DNA from: Acidobacteriota bacterium
GTDB taxonomy: Bacteria > Acidobacteriota > Terriglobia > Versatilivoradales > Versatilivoraceae
Length of the DNA: 64,000 nt
Direction of reading: 5' to 3'
Assembly: GCA_028875575.1 (NCBI GenBank)
Contig: JAPPDF010000030.1
Location: 1 to 64,000 of the forward strand
Shown one piece after another: positions 4,561-57,174 of the stretch (positions are counted from its first letter, which is position 1; the number at the start of each line of letters is the position of its first letter). A program made the translations under genes and the position numbers. The notes under the pieces are model-generated. The model did no database searches and was not told the origin of the DNA. It saw only the letters and a program-made list of their open reading frames with translations.

Positions 4561-5427
4561 TCAGGAAAGCGCCAGATCGCGATGGAGCACCTTGGCGGTG
4601 TAACCCTTCAGGTTCAGCATCCCGCCGATCTGGTTGGCTATCGCGACCGATCGGTGCCGGCCTCCGGTGCAGCCGAATGCGATGGTCAGATAGCTCTTGC
4701 CCTCGATGGCGTAGTTGGGAATCAGGAACAGGAACAGGTCCTCCAGGCGTTGGAGAAACTGCCGGGTCTGATCGAATGATTGAACGTAAGAGGCCACGGC
4801 CGGGTCGTTCCCGTTCTTGGGCTTGAGATTGGGCACGAAGTTGGGATTGGGCAGAAAGCGGACGTCGAAGACCAGGTCGGCCTCGGCGGGCAGGCCGTGC
4901 TTGAACCCGAAGCTGACCAGTGAAATGAGGAGGGCCGTCGAGTCCCGCTCCTGGAACTTGTCGACCATAAATCGCCTCAGTTCGTGAACGTTGAAAGGGC
5001 TGGTGTCGATGACCTGGTCGGCCAGTTTCCTCAAGGGAGCCAAACGGCGTCGCTCTTCGGCCAGGGCGGAGGCAATGGGCTCGTCTCCCTTGAGCGGATG
5101 CGGCCGGCGGGTCTCGCTGTAGCGACGGATCAGGGAGCCGGGAGTGGCCTCCAGATAGACCAGGGTGATGGCCAGGGACGTCTTCTTCAGGCTTTCGAAA
5201 AGCTGCGGGAACCGGGCCAGTTCGTCGCCCTCGCGCACGTCGATCACGATGGCGGCGCGCTTGATTTGCGCCCGGGCCTGGTTGCAGAGCTCGGCGAACT
5301 TGGGAATCAGCTCCAGGGGGAGATTGTCGACGCAGAAATACCCCATGTCCTCAAAGGCCTTCAGGACCGTATCTTTGCCGGATCCGCTCAGACCCGTGAT
5401 GATGACAAAGGGACTTCCGGCTTGCAT
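4561..5427 (-). CDS. rapZ: RapZ/YvcJ-type nucleotide- and RNA-binding adapter
   Basis: P-loop protein of 288 aa. In enterobacteria RapZ guides RNase E to the GlmZ small RNA and so sets glucosamine-6-phosphate synthesis; that role is not established here. Walker A is GLSGSGKDT at residues 12-20. The C-terminal domain carries the conserved GCTGGRHRSV motif. ATG 5427 is the first base block outside a repeat element whose end begins at 5428, so its ribosome binding site (AGGA about six bases upstream) lies inside that element. In relatives the gene sits in the rpoN-hpf operon; here 517 bases separate it from hpf. Confidence 0.92.
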   Translation of the reverse strand: MQAGSPFVIITGLSGSGKDTVLKAFEDMGYFCVDNLPLELIPKFAELCNQARAQIKRAAIVIDVREGDELARFPQLFESLKKTSLAITLVYLEATPGSLIRRYSETRRPHPLKGDEPIASALAEERRRLAPLRKLADQVIDTSPFNVHELRRFMVDKFQERDSTALLISLVSFGFKHGLPAEADLVFDVRFLPNPNFVPNLKPKNGNDPAVASYVQSFDQTRQFLQRLEDLFLFLIPNYAIEGKSYLTIAFGCTGGRHRSVAIANQIGGMLNLKGYTAKVLHRDLALS

Positions 5428-5700
5428 CGAGTGTCCTATCCCAGAAATACGCTTACCATCGCCGATGGAGGTTCCACCGGGAAACGGTCGGTAGGAGAGG
5501 CCCGTTGCGTTTCACACAACAAGCACCTTCTTGCTACCCCCATTGAGAACCTCCATCGGCCCTCCGGGTTCGGGCGGAACGGCGCCGTCTCCGTCGTCGC
5601 TCCTCCTCGCAATGAATCGCATTGGCTCGTCATCGCTCCTGGAATCCGGCGCCGTTGCGCTCCGAAAGATCGCAACCCTATTCCTGGGACAGAGCACGAG
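5428..5700. repeat. Family A element, copy A1 (MITE-like, about 273 bp)
   Basis: Imperfect terminal inverted repeats of about 33 bases: left TGTCCTATCCCAGAAATA, right ending CCTGGGACAGAGCAC. Both ends are bordered by CGAG (5428-5431 and 5697-5700), possibly a 4-bp target duplication. The interior aligns along its length with A2 at 14437 and contains paired arms around CGATGGAGGTTC and GGCGCCGTTGCGC, so it could fold into large hairpins. No coding potential. It directly touches the rapZ start codon. Confidence 0.82.
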
Positions 5701-5948
5701 CCCGCATTTCTCACCAGGGGGCATGATCATGGCGCAGGAATTTTCCCGTCAGCGCGTGCTCGCGACCGAAGAGCGTAGCGGTCACTACGGTCGAGGGAGC
5801 CTGTGCGCGCTGAATGGAAAAGGACCAGTCAGGGCATGCCCAGCGCCGTCTGTTACCTGCAAGCCCTTACCATGGAGCCAATCAAGGTACTGAAAGATAA
5901 ACTCCCGTTCGTCATGCTACCAGCGACCTGGTGAGAATTGCGGTCTAG
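5697..5948. repeat. Family B element, copy B2 (MITE-like, about 252 bp)
   Basis: Terminal inverted repeats of 22 bases (left AGCCCGCATTTCTCACCAGG, right CCTGGTGAGAATTGCGGTCT) match copy B1 at 14191, which lies in the opposite orientation. It shares the 4-bp border CGAG with A1. The hpf stop codon (5945-5947) lies inside its right-hand repeat. An internal hairpin region near 5745-5825 corresponds to the one in B1. Confidence 0.8.
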
Positions 5949-6469
5949 GGTTCAATCAGCCCGAAGTTGCCGTCCTTGCGCTTGTAGAGGACGTTGACTT
6001 TCTCGGACTCGGCGTTTCGGAAAACCAGGAAATTGCCGTTGCCGCCGTTGACTTCCTGGACGGCCTCCTCGACGGTCATGGGCTTGGCGGCGACAGAGGT
6101 TGACTTGATGACCCGTGGGGCTTGCGACGGGGGCCGGTTCGAGCTCGGGGAGTTGGTGGTCGGGCGGGAGGCGGGGTGGCGCTTTCTGGTGAGTTTCTTT
6201 CCCTTGTGCTTCAAGGCCTGGCGTTCGGCCTTTTCCAGCACGGCGTTTATGGAGGCGTGCATGTCGTTGGTTTCTTCAAGTCCGTTGATGTCCAGGGATC
6301 TGGAATGCAAATGGATCTCCGCGATTTGCCGGTGCTTTTGTACCGTCAGGGTCATGTGAACGTGGATGGCTTCACCCAGAATCTTGCGGATCTTCCTGAG
6401 GTGCCCCTCGGTGAAATCCCGCAGCGCAGGAGTGACTTCAATGTTTCGCCCCGTATATGCCACTTGCAT
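5945..6469 (-). CDS. hpf: ribosome hibernation-promoting factor, long form
   Basis: Binds the 30S decoding region and, in the long form, dimerises 70S ribosomes into inactive 100S particles. The N-terminal domain (residues 1-105) opens MQVAYTGRNIEVTPALRDF, followed by a Pro/Ser-rich linker and the C-terminal dimerisation domain ending YKRKDGNFGLIEP. ATG 6469 fits the family and has GGAGAAGA about seven bases upstream; the longer open frame to 6616 overlaps rpoN and is not needed. 174 aa. The stop codon falls inside element B2, so the last residues may have been trimmed by its insertion. Confidence 0.92.
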   Translation of the reverse strand: MQVAYTGRNIEVTPALRDFTEGHLRKIRKILGEAIHVHMTLTVQKHRQIAEIHLHSRSLDINGLEETNDMHASINAVLEKAERQALKHKGKKLTRKRHPASRPTTNSPSSNRPPSQAPRVIKSTSVAAKPMTVEEAVQEVNGGNGNFLVFRNAESEKVNVLYKRKDGNFGLIEP

Positions 6470-6563
6470 CGGGTCTTCTCCAGTGACTCGCCCGTGCCTG
6501 CTTCTCATTTGGAGCCGCCCGCTCCACCCGTGAGGAGCTGAGGGCGGCACCGCGGCGGGCGGC

Positions 6564-8800: not shown

Positions 8801-11047
8801 CTATCTGGACAGACGTTGCGTCGTGACGGCACGATTCTGGGAATTGCCCTCGACGGCAACGCTACCACCCCCAATATCGATTGTCAATCGAGCCCCGGTG
8901 GTGGAACCTCGCTCGTAATCCACGACTTGGGGCGACCCTCCCCATAGGACCACCCTGCGCTCGCGGCCGCGATATTCCGCCCATTGCGAGGACGCGGTGC
9001 GGTTGGGCTGAGCCATTCTGACGTTTCCCTCTGCCAGGGCCTTGTCCACCGATGTCTGTCCCTTTTCCTGCCGGAGAAAAACCTGAAGTCGGTCCGACTG
9101 CAGCCTGCCCTCCGGCGTGGTGGTCGCGACCCCCTCTTCGTACACGATCTTGCGGGCCCCCTCTTCGTAGGTCATCTTTTCGGACCGGACTATGGTGCCG
9201 GGGGAGGATTCTGCCTCGCCCGGGCGGTGGAACAGGTTGGTTACCCCACCGGTTGCAACCAACTTCCCCTCGAGGCGATTCAACCGGATGTCCTCAGCGT
9301 AAAGGATCCTGTCTTTCTGCCAGAGCCGGGCGTTCTTCCGGTAGCGTCCGATTCCCTCCCGGGTCCGATACTCCATGAACTGGGCCGAGGCAAAGACTGC
9401 CGGATGGGCGGCGGGGCCGGACCCGGTGCCGAAATAGGCGGATCGAACCTCGCCCTGCGCCTTGAGCAGATGCCGGTCCCGATGGAATTCAATCACATCG
9501 GCCTCGGTCTCACCCTGGGAATCGGTCACCTTGGGGCGTCCCTCCAGCCTGATGAGAGAGGAATCGACCCGGTGGGTGGCCGATTCCGACCAGGCTTGCC
9601 TGCCTGGCTCCCGATAGTGGAAGTCTCCGGTCTGCCGGATCTCCGACAACCGGTCGGTCTTTCCGTCGAAAAGAGCCGTCAGGTGGTGACTCCTGGTTTC
9701 CCGGACAGTTCCCGAGGCCGAGGAGAATTCCAGTCTTACCTCCCGGTCGGCGGTAAAACGCTCCAGCTGTTCCGAATTCTCTCCGTAGAACAGACTCAGG
9801 GCGCGGGCCGACAGCCTCCGCTTTTCCTCTCCGGGTCCTCCGGGGACCTCTTCCAGGGTGCTGGGTCCCAGAGCATCAACCCGGGAGAGGCGGCCGGTTT
9901 CAGGCCGGAAGTGAGCGTTTACTCGGGGGGAAGTCAGAATACGCCGCGTGGTCCTATCGGGAGGTTGGGAGGACTCCTCGGTTCCGGTCCGGGTCCCTGC
10001 CTGGGAAGGACCCGGCGCCTGGAATTGGACCCGGGCGTCTCCAACGGCCGTTAGCTGCCTGACGGACTGGGACCGGGGCGGAAGAGACACGGTGATTTGC
10101 CGGGCGGACAGCTCGCGGAGAGACCGGGCGGTCAACGGACGGGCCACGGCATTCCCCTGGGCGACGATCTTGTCGAGGCCGTCCGGTCCATCCCCGAAGA
10201 GGTAGCGGAGGCGGTCGGCCCGAACCTGGATCATGACATCGGGATCCAGGGACCTGGATCGAACCTGGCCCTGGGCCTGGATACGGCTCAAAGTCCAGGC
10301 CGGTCTGGCAAAAAACGCCCGCATCACGTCCGCGGTCAATTCGGTGGGGCCCTTTTCCACCCGAACGTTGGAGCGCAGCGCCACCCTGCCGCTCCGTTTG
10401 TGGAACTTCAAGCTGTCGGCCCGGATCCGCAGGAGATGATCCCCTTCATGCGCTGGCAGCACCGTCACGTCCACTTCGGAGGGCAATAGGATCACGCCGC
10501 TGCGCGGCTGGTAGACCAGTCCCTGGCTGCTTCCGCTCACCCGTCCCCGTTCGAAGCTCACGGCGGCCTCGCTCGTTACCCGATCCCGGGTCCGCGAGTA
10601 GGTCATGCGTTCCGCCCTCACGATGGCGGGTATCGACTCGCCGCCGCCGTTGTCGGGGGTATCCAGGGTGACGACCACATTCTCGAGAAAGACCACGTCC
10701 TTGCTGACATTGTCCACTTCGCAACGCAAGCTGGTAATGGTGTCAAACTGTCCTTCCTGCGTGCGAAAGACCTTGGCCTTCACCTGCTCGAGAAGACTCT
10801 TGCTGTCCCGGAGTCCCAGCTGGACCTTGGCCGTGACTTCAATGGTCGTCTTTCCCTGTTCCGAGTGGGAGACGCTGAACCCTTCGATCAGGTCGGTGGC
10901 TTCTTCCGGAAGCGATTCCACTTGCGGGACAGGCCGGGTTCCGGGAGTTCGGGTGCTCCGGTAGTAGCTGATGCAGACAGCCCCGACCACGCTCACCACC
11001 ACCAGTAGCGGAATGATGCGGCCGAGCTTGAGCAAATTACGTCGCAT
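8801..11047 (-). CDS. large LptC/LptA-like periplasmic LPS transport protein
   Basis: A 748-aa protein with one N-terminal membrane anchor (residues 12-29) and a long beta-rich periplasmic part. The region after the anchor (IEGFSVSHSEQGKTTIEVTAKV) resembles LptC, and the rest has several OstA/LptA-like stretches such as FHRDRHLLKAQGEV and IRLNRLEGKLVATGGVTNLF. LptC and LptA are usually separate proteins of about 190 and 185 aa, so this looks like a fused or expanded bridge. Position directly before lptB supports the role. Domain borders need a structure-based search. Confidence 0.82.
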   Translation of the reverse strand: MRRNLLKLGRIIPLLVVVSVVGAVCISYYRSTRTPGTRPVPQVESLPEEATDLIEGFSVSHSEQGKTTIEVTAKVQLGLRDSKSLLEQVKAKVFRTQEGQFDTITSLRCEVDNVSKDVVFLENVVVTLDTPDNGGGESIPAIVRAERMTYSRTRDRVTSEAAVSFERGRVSGSSQGLVYQPRSGVILLPSEVDVTVLPAHEGDHLLRIRADSLKFHKRSGRVALRSNVRVEKGPTELTADVMRAFFARPAWTLSRIQAQGQVRSRSLDPDVMIQVRADRLRYLFGDGPDGLDKIVAQGNAVARPLTARSLRELSARQITVSLPPRSQSVRQLTAVGDARVQFQAPGPSQAGTRTGTEESSQPPDRTTRRILTSPRVNAHFRPETGRLSRVDALGPSTLEEVPGGPGEEKRRLSARALSLFYGENSEQLERFTADREVRLEFSSASGTVRETRSHHLTALFDGKTDRLSEIRQTGDFHYREPGRQAWSESATHRVDSSLIRLEGRPKVTDSQGETEADVIEFHRDRHLLKAQGEVRSAYFGTGSGPAAHPAVFASAQFMEYRTREGIGRYRKNARLWQKDRILYAEDIRLNRLEGKLVATGGVTNLFHRPGEAESSPGTIVRSEKMTYEEGARKIVYEEGVATTTPEGRLQSDRLQVFLRQEKGQTSVDKALAEGNVRMAQPNRTASSQWAEYRGRERRVVLWGGSPQVVDYERGSTTGARLTIDIGGGSVAVEGNSQNRAVTTQRLSR

Positions 11048-12844: not shown

Positions 12845-13059
12845 CCCCCCACCGCATCAGCCTTCGCCTGACGGCGCTGCTTTGCGGCTCGCGTATGCCC
12901 CCCTCCGCATCAGCCACCGCCTGCGGCTCGGCTTCTGCGACTCCCCCTCAAGGGGGGAGTGATTCCTGAGTCATACATACGGAGCTCGAGTATCACTCCC
13001 CCCTTGAGGGGGAGTCGGTGAGACAAGGGCTCCGCCCGCAGTCGAACCAGTGGGGGGGC
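12845..13059. repeat. Family D element, copy D1 (GC-rich, central 24-bp inverted repeat)
   Basis: Begins CCCCCCACCGCATCAGCC and ends CCAGTGGGGGGGC. In the middle a perfect 24-base inverted repeat (12939-12962 and 12993-13016; core CTCAAGGGGGGAGTGA) encloses a 30-base loop. Sister copies lie at 55352 and 56858. The left part is partly duplicated (a second CCGCATCAGCC at 12904). This fills most of the gap between recJ and the transporter gene; the rest of that gap shows nothing beyond a -10-like TATAAT at 13202. Confidence 0.8.
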
Positions 13060-13201
13060 GGAATCGGCGAGATCGCCACATAGGAGAGTCAGCCCGCCTT
13101 CGAGCCGGAGGGGGCAGACGCGGCGCTGCGTGAGTGAATGTCGTCGGTACGGGCAGCAACGCGCTGTCGGCCTCGTTCGAGCATTGGGCAGCTGCCGGCG
13201 C

Positions 13202-14190: not shown

Positions 14191-14440
14191 CTAGCCCGCA
14201 TTTCTCACCAGGCCGCTGGAGGCATTACAAGAAGCAGATTATCTTCAGCATCTTGATTGGCACCATGTCAAGGGCTTGCGCATCACAGACGGTGCTGGGC
14301 ATGCCCTGGCTTGTCCTTTTCCCCTCAGCGCGCACAGGCTCCCTCGACCGTAGAAACCGCTACGCTCTTCGGTCGCGAGCACGCGCTGAGGGGAAAGTCC
14401 TGCGCCATGATCATGCCCCCTGGTGAGAAATGCGGGCTAG
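14191..14440. repeat. Family B element, copy B1 (MITE-like, 250 bp)
   Basis: Perfect 22-base terminal inverted repeats, 14191-14212 and 14419-14440 (CTAGCCCGCATTTCTCACCA and its complement). The ends read CTAG. A long interior hairpin has arms CCCCTCAGCGCG (14321-14332) and CGCGCTGAGGGG (14382-14393). No open frame of its own. It abuts A2 and shares CTAG (14437-14440) with it. The repeat ends recall IS1380-like termini from memory, which is a weak inference. Confidence 0.83.
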
Positions 14441-14710
14441 TGTCCTGTCTCAGAAATAGGGCTACCATCTCCGATGGAGGTTCCACCGGGAAACGGTCGG
14501 CAGGAGAGACTCGTTGCGTTTCAGCCATGAGGCACCGTTGTGCTCAATCAATCCGGAACCTCCATCGGCCCTCCGGGTTCGGGCGCAACGGCGCCGTCTT
14601 CGTCTTCGCTCCTCCCCGCAATGAATGAGCGTTGGCTCATCGTCGCTGCTGGAATCCGGCGCCGTTGCGCTCCGAAAGACGGCAACCCTGTTTCTGAGAC
14701 AGAACACCAG
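14437..14710. repeat. Family A element, copy A2 (MITE-like, 274 bp)
   Basis: Imperfect terminal inverted repeats: left TGTCCTGTCTCAGAAATAGG, right ending TTTCTGAGACAGAACACC. Inside is a perfect 14-base inverted repeat (14471-14484 with 14555-14568) and a second pair around GGCGCC. It aligns with A1 along its length, in the same orientation. Small open frames inside are by-products of the inverted repeats. Confidence 0.82.
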
Positions 14711-14734
14711 CCGTAAAAATAAAAGCAGCCAATG

Positions 14735-20792: not shown

Positions 20793-20850
20793 CCGGTGTC
20801 CTGACTCGGAAACAGGATACGGCAACCTTACGCCTGAGACAGAACACAAG
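20793..20850. repeat. Family A remnant, copy A3 (58 bp, termini only)
   Basis: Left TGTCCTGACTCGGAAACAGG and right GCCTGAGACAGAACACAAG are the two ends of family A with the entire interior missing. The result is a short imperfect hairpin between the rpoD stop codon and tRNA-Met. It could influence rpoD mRNA 3' end formation, though no T-run follows. Confidence 0.72.
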
Positions 20851-20877
20851 CGGTGGACCACCCCTTTTCTCCAGTTT

Positions 20878-20954
20878 GGGCCCATAGCTCAGTTGGTTAG
20901 AGCCGCCGGCTCATAACCGGCCGGTCGTAGGTTCGAGTCCTACTGGGCCCACCA
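20878..20954 (+). tRNA. tRNA with CAT anticodon (Met, or Ile after lysidine modification)
   Basis: Complete cloverleaf of 77 bases including an encoded CCA (20952-20954). Acceptor stem GGGCCCA/TGGGCCC, D arm GCTC-AGTTGGTTA-GAGC, anticodon arm GCCGG-CTCATAA-CCGGC with anticodon CAT at 20912-20914, and T arm GTAGG-TTCGAGT-CCTAC. The fully paired first acceptor pair (G1-C72) excludes an initiator tRNA. Elongator Met and Ile2 cannot be told apart with certainty by eye. Confidence 0.95.
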
Positions 20955-24307: not shown

Positions 24308-24680
24308 AATTGTAGATTGCTGATTTCAGATTTTTGATCGGGCTTGAAATCGAAAACAGTCACAAACGACTTTAACTGTATGTCCTGCTGATACTTAAAC
24401 GATTGCTTGGCACCTCTAACGGGACAATTCTGGTCCACACTGATCCACAATCCAAAATCAACAGAGCCTTTTGCAAAGTTCGGCTGCGGGACGGTTGCCG
24501 GGAATGGCCACAAAAGGCACAAAAACATCACCTGTGACTTTTGTGCTTTTTGTGGTTAGGCAGCATTGTTCACCTGGTCGCACCCGATATTGAAAAAGGG
24601 CAGAACCTCAGGTTTTCCAGCAAGGTGACCTGCTCCGCTACGAATTTTGCAACAGACTCAACAATCTAAAATCTACAATC
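24308..24680. repeat. AT-rich inverted flanks around element C1
   Basis: Stretches such as TTGTAGATTGCTGATTTCAG (24308 on) and their inverse CAATCTAAAATCTACAATCC (24661-24680) bracket element C1. Similar AT-rich text occurs beside C3 (40632-40655) and at 63214-63313. The remainder of this 412-base gap (24299-24710) contains no gene that I can see. Confidence 0.5.
24471..24652. repeat. Family C element, copy C1 (182 bp)
   Basis: Termini TTGCAAAGTTCGGCTGCGGG and, inverted at the right end, CCGCTACGAATTTTGCAA. The interior has a near-perfect hairpin (GGCCACAAAAGGCACAAA with TTTGTGCTTTTTGTGGTT). Copies C2 (30990) and C3 (40660) lie in the opposite orientation. Confidence 0.8.
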
Positions 24681-24710
24681 CAACGTGTCCGCTCGTGGAT
24701 AACTCTCCAA

Positions 24711-26487: not shown

Positions 26488-26745
26488 GACCCCCTCCGGC
26501 TCGAGGGACGCCGCGATTGCCCCCTCCGGCTCGACTGCGGGCTGGCGCTCCCGCAACGCCGCGATTGCCCCCCTCCGGTTCGACTGCGGGCTGGCGCTCC
26601 CGCAACGCCGCGATTGCCCCCCTCCGGTTCGACTGCGGGCTGGCGCTCCCGCAACGCCGCGATTGCCCCCCTCCGGTTCGACTGCGGGCGGAGCCCTTGT
26701 CTCACCGAAGCCGAGCCGCAGGCGAAGGCTGATGCGGAGGGGGGC
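26488..26745. repeat. Family D derivative, copy D4, with a 49-bp tandem array
   Basis: The right part is the complement of family D outer sequences joined without the central hairpin (CTCACCGA directly followed by AGCCGAGCC). To its left, a 48-49 base unit (core GCGATTGCCCCCCTCCGGTT, then CGACTGCGGGCTGGCGC) is repeated four times, starting at 26513, 26561, 26610 and 26659. Open frames through it in several phases are artefacts of the repeat. It fills the gap between the small membrane protein and rnhB. Confidence 0.82.
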
Positions 26746-26763
26746 ATATGTGACGCCGCAAAG

Positions 26764-27381
26764 CTACGGCTTCCTGAGACGCAGCGTTTGTTTCAAGTAA
26801 GTTCCTTCTTCCGGGTCGACTCCGGAGCCCGGATCCGCTGAATTCAGACCACAGACGCCCCGAAAGCTGGCTCGGTGGAGAGGAGTCGGTCCCAGCCGCA
26901 TCAGGGCTTCCCGATGCTTCCGGGTGCCGTACCCCATGTTGTTTCTCAGGTCATACCCCGGGTACCGCGCGTCCAGGTTCACGATCAAGCGGTCCCTGGC
27001 GACCTTGGCCAGGATCGAGGCGGCCGCGATAGAGAGGGAGCGCCGGTCTCCTCCCACGATGGACTGCTGGGGCAAGGGAATGGGCACGACCATATCGCCG
27101 TCGCTCAGCAGAAAGTCCGGCCTTGTTTCCAGCTTTTCGACAGCCAGGACCATGGCTCTGCGGGTTGCTTCCAGGATGTTGATCCGATCGATGGTGGATG
27201 CGTCCACGAAGGCCACCGCTGACGCTTCAGCCGCCTCTCGGATGTCATCGGCCAGTTTCGACCTTTGCCGGGGACTCAGTGTCTTGGAGTCGTTGATGCC
27301 AGAGGGAATGCGCTGGGGGTTCATGATCACTGCGCCGGCACAAACGGGGCCGAACAAGGCTCCGCGGCCCACCTCGTCCAA
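26764..27381 (-). CDS. rnhB: ribonuclease HII, start codon unresolved
   Basis: Removes ribonucleotides from DNA. Catalytic residues are in LDEVGRGALFGPVCAGAV, NDSKTLSPRQR, DASTIDRINI, DGDMVVP, ASILAKVARDR and the C-terminal YPGYDLRNNMGYGT. TTG 27381 would begin inside the first active-site motif. The frame stays open upstream and encodes family-like residues (EFEVHAQNRGFLRIAG), but no ATG, GTG or TTG occurs in it back to the rplS stop; ATT at 27534 and CTG at 27486 are the nearest alternatives. The true gene is therefore longer than shown. It is last in the rpsP-rplS operon. Confidence 0.85.
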   Translation of the reverse strand: MDEVGRGALFGPVCAGAVIMNPQRIPSGINDSKTLSPRQRSKLADDIREAAEASAVAFVDASTIDRINILEATRRAMVLAVEKLETRPDFLLSDGDMVVPIPLPQQSIVGGDRRSLSIAAASILAKVARDRLIVNLDARYPGYDLRNNMGYGTRKHREALMRLGPTPLHRASFRGVCGLNSADPGSGVDPEEGTYLKQTLRLRKP

Positions 27382-30989: not shown

Positions 30990-31191
30990 TTGCAATATTC
31001 GTAGCGGGCAAGTTCTTTTGCCGGCACAGGTGATGTTCTGCCACTTTCAATTATCGGGTGCCACTTTGTGAGCAATACGGGTTCACCACAAAAAGCACAA
31101 AAGTCACAAAATGGATTATCTGATTTCGTTCTGCTCTTTTTGTGCCTTTTGTGGCCATTGCCGGCAAGGGTCCCGCTGCCGAATCTTGCAA
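30990..31191. repeat. Family C element, copy C2 (202 bp)
   Basis: Termini TTGCAATATTCGTAGCGGGC and CCCGCTGCCGAATCTTGCAA. The central hairpin arms are ACCACAAAAAGCACAAAAG and TTTTTGTGCCTTTTGTGG. It is longer than C1 and C3 because of extra sequence in the loop. The rest of the 481-base gap (30790-31270) shows no gene. Confidence 0.8.
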
Positions 31192-40627: not shown

Positions 40628-40659
40628 AGTGAATTGTTGATTTTTGATTTCTGAGGTTT

Positions 40660-40832
40660 TTGCAAGATTCGCAGCGGGGCAGGACATCTTGCCGGTAAAC
40701 CTGAGGTTCTGCCTTTTTCAATATCGGGTGCGACCTGGTGAAAAATGCTGTCTAACCACAAAAAGCACAAATAATTTTTTTTGTGCCTTTTGTGGCCATT
40801 ACCGATAAACGTCCCGCTGCCGAATTTTGCAA
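40660..40832. repeat. Family C element, copy C3, between atpG and atpD (173 bp)
   Basis: Termini TTGCAAGATTCGCAGCGGGG and CCCGCTGCCGAATTTTGCAA with the central hairpin AACCACAAAAAGCACAAA / TTTGTGCCTTTTGTGGCC. AT-rich text of the kind beside C1 flanks it. The rest of the gap (40628-40976) holds only a GGAGGGAGA-type ribosome binding site for atpD. Confidence 0.82.
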
Positions 40833-40910
40833 AGGGCTCTTGTGATTGTTGAATGAGGGTAAGGACAACGGGTATTGCCTCAATTCTGCAATCCGAAATT
40901 CACGAGCTGA

Positions 40911-42808: not shown

Positions 42809-42853
42809 GACATTTGCTGTTTTTGCCATACAATGGAGAGGGTAGGACAAGGC

Positions 42854-44245
<1,392 letters not shown>

Positions 44246-47394: not shown

Positions 47395-47600
47395 CCGTTC
47401 GCGACCGGTGCCCCTGATCCGCCGCCTACGCGGCTGCTACAGCGCCGGGTCCATACGACCCCGGGCTTCCGCCCGGGGCTACCCTAAGCCGCAGCTACGC
47501 TGCTCTATAAGGAAGACCCGTAGGAAACGTCACCTCGGCCATCCTGCGTCAACCGCGGCTACGCCGCTCTCCCCTCAACCACGACACTGCCGCGGGGATA
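47395..47600. repeat. GC-rich palindromic repeat region after hslU
   Basis: Contains a perfect hairpin CCCCGGGC-TTCC-GCCCGGGG (47459-47478) and several related short units (GCCGCCTACGCGGCTGCTAC, CCGCGGCTACGCCGCTC). The 380-base gap 47321-47700 has no credible gene. The hairpin could end hslVU transcription, but no T-run follows. Confidence 0.55.
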
Positions 47601-55351: not shown

Positions 55352-55566
55352 CTCCCCACCGCATCAGCCTTCGCCATTCGGCGCTGCTTTGCGACGTCGC
55401 GATTGCCCCCCTCCGCATCAGCCTTCGCCTGCGGCTCGGCTTCTGCGACTCCCCCTCAAGGGGGGAGTGATTCTTGAGGCCAGCAAAAGACGCACGAGTA
55501 TCACTCCCCCCTTGAGGGGGAGTCGGTGAGACAAGGGCTGCGCCCGCAGTCGAACCGGAGGGGGGC
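55352..55566. repeat. Family D element, copy D2
   Basis: Same plan as D1: outer CTCCCCACCGCATCAGCC and CCGGAGGGGGGC, with perfect 24-base arms at 55447-55470 and 55501-55524 and a 30-base loop (TTCTTGAGGCCAGCAAAAGA, then CGCACGAGTA). A further short unit follows up to about 55622. No gene in the gap 55296-55677. Confidence 0.82.
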
Positions 55567-55677
55567 ATACGCGGCGTTCCTTCGACCACACCGAAGCCCG
55601 CCGTCGAGCCGGTGGGGGGCAACGCTACGCCCCGTGAATGACTATCGGTGGCTTCGGCACTTCCGGTAGGCGGCGAC

Positions 55678-56598: not shown

Positions 56599-56857
56599 GA
56601 GGTGGGTTTCTTTCTGACCGGACAGGTACGTCCGGCATTGTCAGCGTCAGCAAGTCTCTTGCCAAAAGAGGGAGTCTGTGGTCAAGCCGTTGATAATCGG
56701 TTCCTTACAGGCTTGTTCCGGGGATCCGTCCCGGCCGGGCCCTGTGACCCGGATGCAACACACCAACCAAGTTTTCGTGCTCCATTGCCAACAGTCCCAC
56801 GGTAATCCGGATGCACCCAGGGATCTCCCGCGCCGCAGCTTGGCGCCCTGGCGTCCG

Positions 56858-57023
56858 TCCCCCACCGCATCAGCCTTCGCCATCCGGCTCGGCTTCTGCG
56901 ATTCCCCCTCAAGGGGGGAGTGACAGTGTTCTACTGGAAGCCTTGTGCTGGCCTCAAGCACTCCCCCCTGGAGGGGGAGTCGGTGAGACAAGGGCTCCGC
57001 CCGCAGTCGAACCGGTGGGGGGC
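56858..57023. repeat. Family D element, copy D3, with inverted loop
   Basis: Outer flanks match D2 in the same orientation. Arms at 56900-56923 and 56958-56981 pair with one G-G-type variation in the centre. The loop, read as its complement, starts TTGAGGCCAGCACAAG and so resembles the loop of D2 in reverse. The rest of the gap 56599-57174 shows no gene. Confidence 0.78.
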
Positions 57024-57174
57024 AAACACTCCGGCCTCCCTTCGCTCGTGTGCCCCTTCGGGCAAAGGGAACTGCCGCTCTTCGGTGGGTTGTGGTGCTG
57101 GGAAGCCAAACTCGCCGCGGCAATCCGGAAGGCTGTCCCTACGGACCCACCCGCCGAATCTTAACTGATAAGGG

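Follow-up and report, generated by a model that had tools for sequence, protein, structure and literature searches.

Two dispersed non-coding elements, very probably nested MITEs, at the hpf-rapZ junction of an Acidobacteriota genome

The hpf-rapZ junction

In the window, by which we mean the whole stretch of 64,000 nucleotides that was analysed, the genes follow the minus-strand order lptB-rpoN-hpf-[517 bp]-rapZ, and the gene calls of rpoN, hpf and rapZ were confirmed to be correct. In this sponge-associated acidobacterium the gap of 517 bp between the conserved genes hpf and rapZ (5428-5944) harbours two dispersed non-coding elements, A and B, represented here by the copies A1 and B2. The junction comprises the following features:

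4561-5427, minus strand: rapZ, encoding the RNase adapter RapZ, intact and under purifying selection
5429-5430, no strand: GA, rapZ-side copy of the A1 target duplication (flanks GA...GA)
5431-5697, minus strand: element A1, a putative MITE of family A, about 267 bp, hairpin-folding, inverted ends GTGTCCTATCCCAGAAATA.../GTGCTCTGTCCCAGGAATA..., delimited from aligned copies
5434-5437, minus strand: AGGA, putative Shine-Dalgarno-like site for rapZ within the A1 terminal repeat
5697-5700, no strand: CGAG, the other B2 flank, differing from CTAG at one position and overlapping the A1 end and the A1 target duplication
5698-5699, no strand: GA, B-side copy of the A1 target duplication
5701-5944, minus strand: element B2, best read as an IS1380-type MITE, 244 bp, ends CCCGCATTTCTCACCAGG.../...CCTGGTGAGAATTGCGG(T), delimited from aligned copies
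5945-5948, no strand: CTAG, B2 target site, holding the hpf stop codon (complement of CTA, 5945-5947)
5945-6484, minus strand: hpf, encoding the long form of the ribosome hibernation-promoting factor

That two inserted non-coding elements fill this gap, as the first-pass annotation had proposed, is borne out by their dispersed copies: in the 4.49-Mb genome 144 sites match the B end CCCGCATTTCTCACCAGG with no more than one mismatch, while the reversed control gives 0 matches. The borders drawn by that annotation need adjustment. A1 does not begin one base past the rapZ ATG but 3 bp from it, a single C (5428) and the duplicated GA (5429-5430) lying in between, and the hpf stop codon is indeed situated at the B2 border, not however inside the terminal repeat of B2 but just outside of it, in the CTAG target. 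In most congeners, as in the window, hpf terminates in ...CCC TAG. B comes immediately after the window's CTAG at 5945-5948, and the C-terminus GLIEP* of the encoded protein is identical in congeners and family relatives. A search of the literature revealed no paper on this genus, whose nearest named relative, Candidatus Versatilivorator, is a sponge acidobacterium, and no paper naming rapZ, hpf, ptsN, rpoN and operon together.

A1 and B2 share 85-89% identity with the window copies at 14439-14712 and 14196-14470 and match dozens of further sites across the genome. B and A stand side by side a second time in the window (14196-14712), where B (about 14196-14437) precedes A (about 14440-14707) and the pair is flanked by a cation-efflux gene and a mutS2-like gene, and once more in L045. 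Both families are present in 6/6 congeners and in 0/5 family relatives of other genera, and they are ordinary mobile DNA of the genus. The window contains other features of its own. A decayed A end (20796-20854) lies just before a tRNA gene (20878-20951), a further family of dispersed, GC-rich repeats (CCCCCTCCGGTTCGACTGCGGGC..., CACTCCCCCCTTGAGGGGGAGTC...) is found at 12847-13125, 26509-26770, 55352-55578 and 56831-57027, and TTTGTGCTTTTTGTGG-type segments characterise a third dispersed family at 24440-24682, 31018-31191 and 40630-40863. A single open frame of 748 amino acids at 8801-11047 combines an LptC domain near its start with an LptA domain near its end.

Anatomy of elements A and B

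The genome contains about 70 copies of B, numerous and dispersed and devoid of a transposase gene. Full-length copies span 241-245 bp, and a short form of 126-148 bp also exists (at L211-L213, L215-L218, L226, L236, L240 and L241, several of these in the complete congener genome G001). Of 62 distinct copies from the genus, 20 are flanked by CTAG/CTAG and 8 by TTAA/TTAA, so that 28/62 carry identical CTAG or TTAA flanks, B2 itself having CTAG/CGAG. The inverted ends of 18 bp are common to B and a decayed IS1380-family transposase copy of the same genome: at locus L242, positions 1268-1979, an element of 712 bp is bounded by B-like ends (15/18 and 16/18 identity) and encodes the initial portion of an IS1380-family transposase (PF13701, E 2.8e-34; NF033539, E 3.6e-27, which lies below the curated cut-off). 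A PF13701 profile search of the genome for an intact partner of B returned one truncated copy and a weak match over 44 positions only, and the solo B ends retrieved from congeners had no IS1380 transposase fragment match beside them. IS1380 transposases are the prokaryotic outgroup of the eukaryotic piggyBac, which duplicates TTAA (PMC10813416). Because B shares its ends with an IS1380 transposase remnant, and because of this kinship and target preference, B is best read as an IS1380-type MITE, for which mobilisation by an IS1380-family transposase is putative. The 4-bp CTAG/TTAA target duplications of B resemble the TTAA of piggyBac; its lack of a transposase gene and its small size set it apart from the IS1380 family.

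Family A comprises about 40 copies in the genome, most of them 266-269 bp long and a small number near 230 bp, and its ends of about 26 bp have 82 genome matches with at most two mismatches (control 0). The flanks are most often TA/TA (11/42 copies), A1 having GA/GA, and the two ends of one copy usually share a variant, TCTC, TAAC, TCCC or TTTC. Three 47-bp palindromes in G001 (C1:3727221-3727267, C1:3743353-3743399 and C1:3909751-3909797) consist of two A ends with nearly no interior. Inspection by eye of the listed A-end sites gave no inverted pair at a distance of 0.8-2 kb beyond those explained by short A copies. A is best classed as a MITE of a second family, with the IS5 family, IS427 group, or IS630 as candidate kin. 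These would fit its 2-bp duplication and mostly TA targets, the comparison with IS5/IS427 being one by description, and IS427-group elements are listed with 2-bp repeats (PMC3281130). Unlike IS630, A has no PF13358 (DDE_3) transposase domain in its genome, and an IS630 partner was rejected on this ground. Like IS-derived bacterial MITEs, both A and B are short and non-coding, possess inverted ends, target duplications and hairpins, occur in many copies and often sit at gene borders; they differ in that their sequences are genus-specific and that their internal stems carry compensatory changes.

States of the junction in the genus

At the junction, five congeners (L062-L065 and G002) are without full elements and the sister species L061 has A only. 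In L061 the A copy sits on the same hpf CTAG; it is taken as an independent insertion because it is only 70% identical and lies in opposite orientation. Just 28-29 bp separate the hpf stop from rapZ in L062, L063, L064 and G002, and these short junctions correspond to the left end of B, also past the inverted repeat (shuffles reaching the score: 0/2000 for L062, 2/2000 for L063 and 0/2000 for L064; the same kind of B-end sequence in G002, judged by eye). The sequence of about 28 bp is likeliest a B remnant inherited by descent, and the full B of the window may be the surviving ancestral copy or a later copy recombined into the remnant. As four congeners keep this B-end match, the junction appears to have been remodelled repeatedly. 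L065 groups with L063 in the rapZ tree (supports 93/96, slightly under the starred level), and its hpf and rapZ genes overlap as TGATG.

Expression of rapZ

The rapZ genes of the window and of the sister species L061 differ with a dN/dS of 0.066, indicating purifying selection. The claim of the first-pass annotation that rapZ takes its ribosome binding site from the element is plausible: an AGGA in the A end is separated by a spacer of 6 nt from the rapZ ATG and its predicted anti-Shine-Dalgarno duplex amounts to -6.8 kcal/mol versus -1.5 to -6.2 kcal/mol in congeners. The intact rapZ is probably translated from this site. Neither a sigma-70-like promoter nor an intrinsic terminator was found within the interval, and the untranslated gap of 517 nt could putatively cut read-through to rapZ.

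Origin of the interval

We are confident that the interval represents two nested non-autonomous MITEs, first B on the CTAG of the hpf stop and then A, and that no gene was replaced, since hpf and rapZ were already neighbours. B, with its IS1380-family ends, would have inserted into the CTAG containing the hpf stop, and because such an insertion recreates a CTAG on either side, the stop codon and the hpf protein would have been kept, as copies and congeners suggest. A, with its mostly TA targets and its long hairpin, would then have inserted at the border of B and rapZ, 3 bp from the rapZ ATG and with duplication of GA; that it came after B is suggested by the nesting, as A, flanked by GA at either end, separates B from rapZ. 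The elements would accordingly be genomic parasites tolerated at a gene end. Several observations stand against nested MITEs: the B2 flanks differ by one base (CTAG/CGAG), the A1 duplication is GA and not the usual TA, the internal hairpins with compensatory changes exceed the needs of a MITE, and no intact autonomous partner was found for A or B, for which reason transposition of both is deduced from their anatomy.

In many bacteria ptsN or hprK sits between hpf and rapZ, and this general knowledge is what favours the proposal of the first-pass annotation that A and B replaced such a gene, insertion and gene loss having gone together. The comparison of the interval argues against it, as the five congeners lacking full elements show hpf next to rapZ and an identical hpf terminus, hpf-rapZ or rpoN-rapZ are adjacent in family and class relatives wherever the upstream gene was readable, and hpf-rapZ are adjacent in Rokubacteria. 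The state of the five congeners is what the first-pass annotation had itself named as refuting its proposal. Domains of ptsN type are absent from 7/7 genomes of the genus and from 40/41 genomes of the class sample (found in 1/41), and hprK had no match in the genus and short, weak matches elsewhere in the class sample, none of them convincing. The ptsN/hprK-free order thus appears, from these gene orders, to long predate the elements, and the replacement, to which we assign next to no probability, was rejected. A wrong joining of repeat copies within the contig has only a very slight probability in turn: several contigs of the draft genome start exactly at B copies and B2 is 98% identical to a copy on contig C52, yet the gene order on both sides is that of the congeners, the sister species L061 also has an insertion at the same stop codon, and the flanks of A1 match (GA/GA).

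It was further considered that A and B are portable structured-RNA modules at stop codons, in which 3' UTR hairpins would process, stabilise or terminate the upstream mRNA and uncouple hpf from rapZ. Both elements fold better than shuffled sequences (z -7.2 for A, z -3.8 for B), and the compensatory changes exceed shuffled and slid controls (A, 11 pairs and 33 cells against a shuffled mean of 8.6 cells; B, 8 pairs and 37 cells against 10.4), these counts being inflated by related copies and based on a fold that was itself predicted from the counted alignment. The A hairpin is stronger on one strand in 34/35 copies, and about half of all copies abut a stop codon, the target TAG or TAA terminating an open frame of 100 codons or more in 33/62 B and 17/42 A copies. 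This placement is however explained by the CTAG target. Outside of the elements CTAG is rare: 122 kb contain 27 sites, of which 15 (56%) terminate open frames of this length, so the elements land on stop codons without special aim, and a special targeting of stop codons was dismissed. Moreover, the copies favour neither orientation with respect to the upstream gene (A 8 vs 10, B 12 vs 19), which speaks against an RNA role tied to that gene; paired inverted ends can also stem from transposase recognition or palindrome-templated mutation; and the interval has no terminator-like site and, at 5428-5944, no Rfam match at gathering score. On account of the related copies, the same-alignment structure and the missing orientation preference, an RNA function is a minority reading that we consider unlikely. 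It is likewise improbable that the hairpins are selected as RNA or as DNA cruciform and that the elements act as portable 3' UTRs re-regulating their neighbours hpf and rapZ. Elsewhere in the window, a lysine riboswitch (RF00168, 109 bits) is located at 42848-43028 and an Acido-Lenti-1 RNA (RF01687, 46.5 bits) at 47459-47504.

Significance

The analysis removes the suspected tie between element insertion and the loss of a PTS gene, and it shows in a clear case how mobile DNA that requires CTAG ends up on stop codons and leaves the protein unharmed. The sequence state of a single junction can be read in seven species of the genus, and if the hairpins were functional, A and B would be mobile 3' UTRs.
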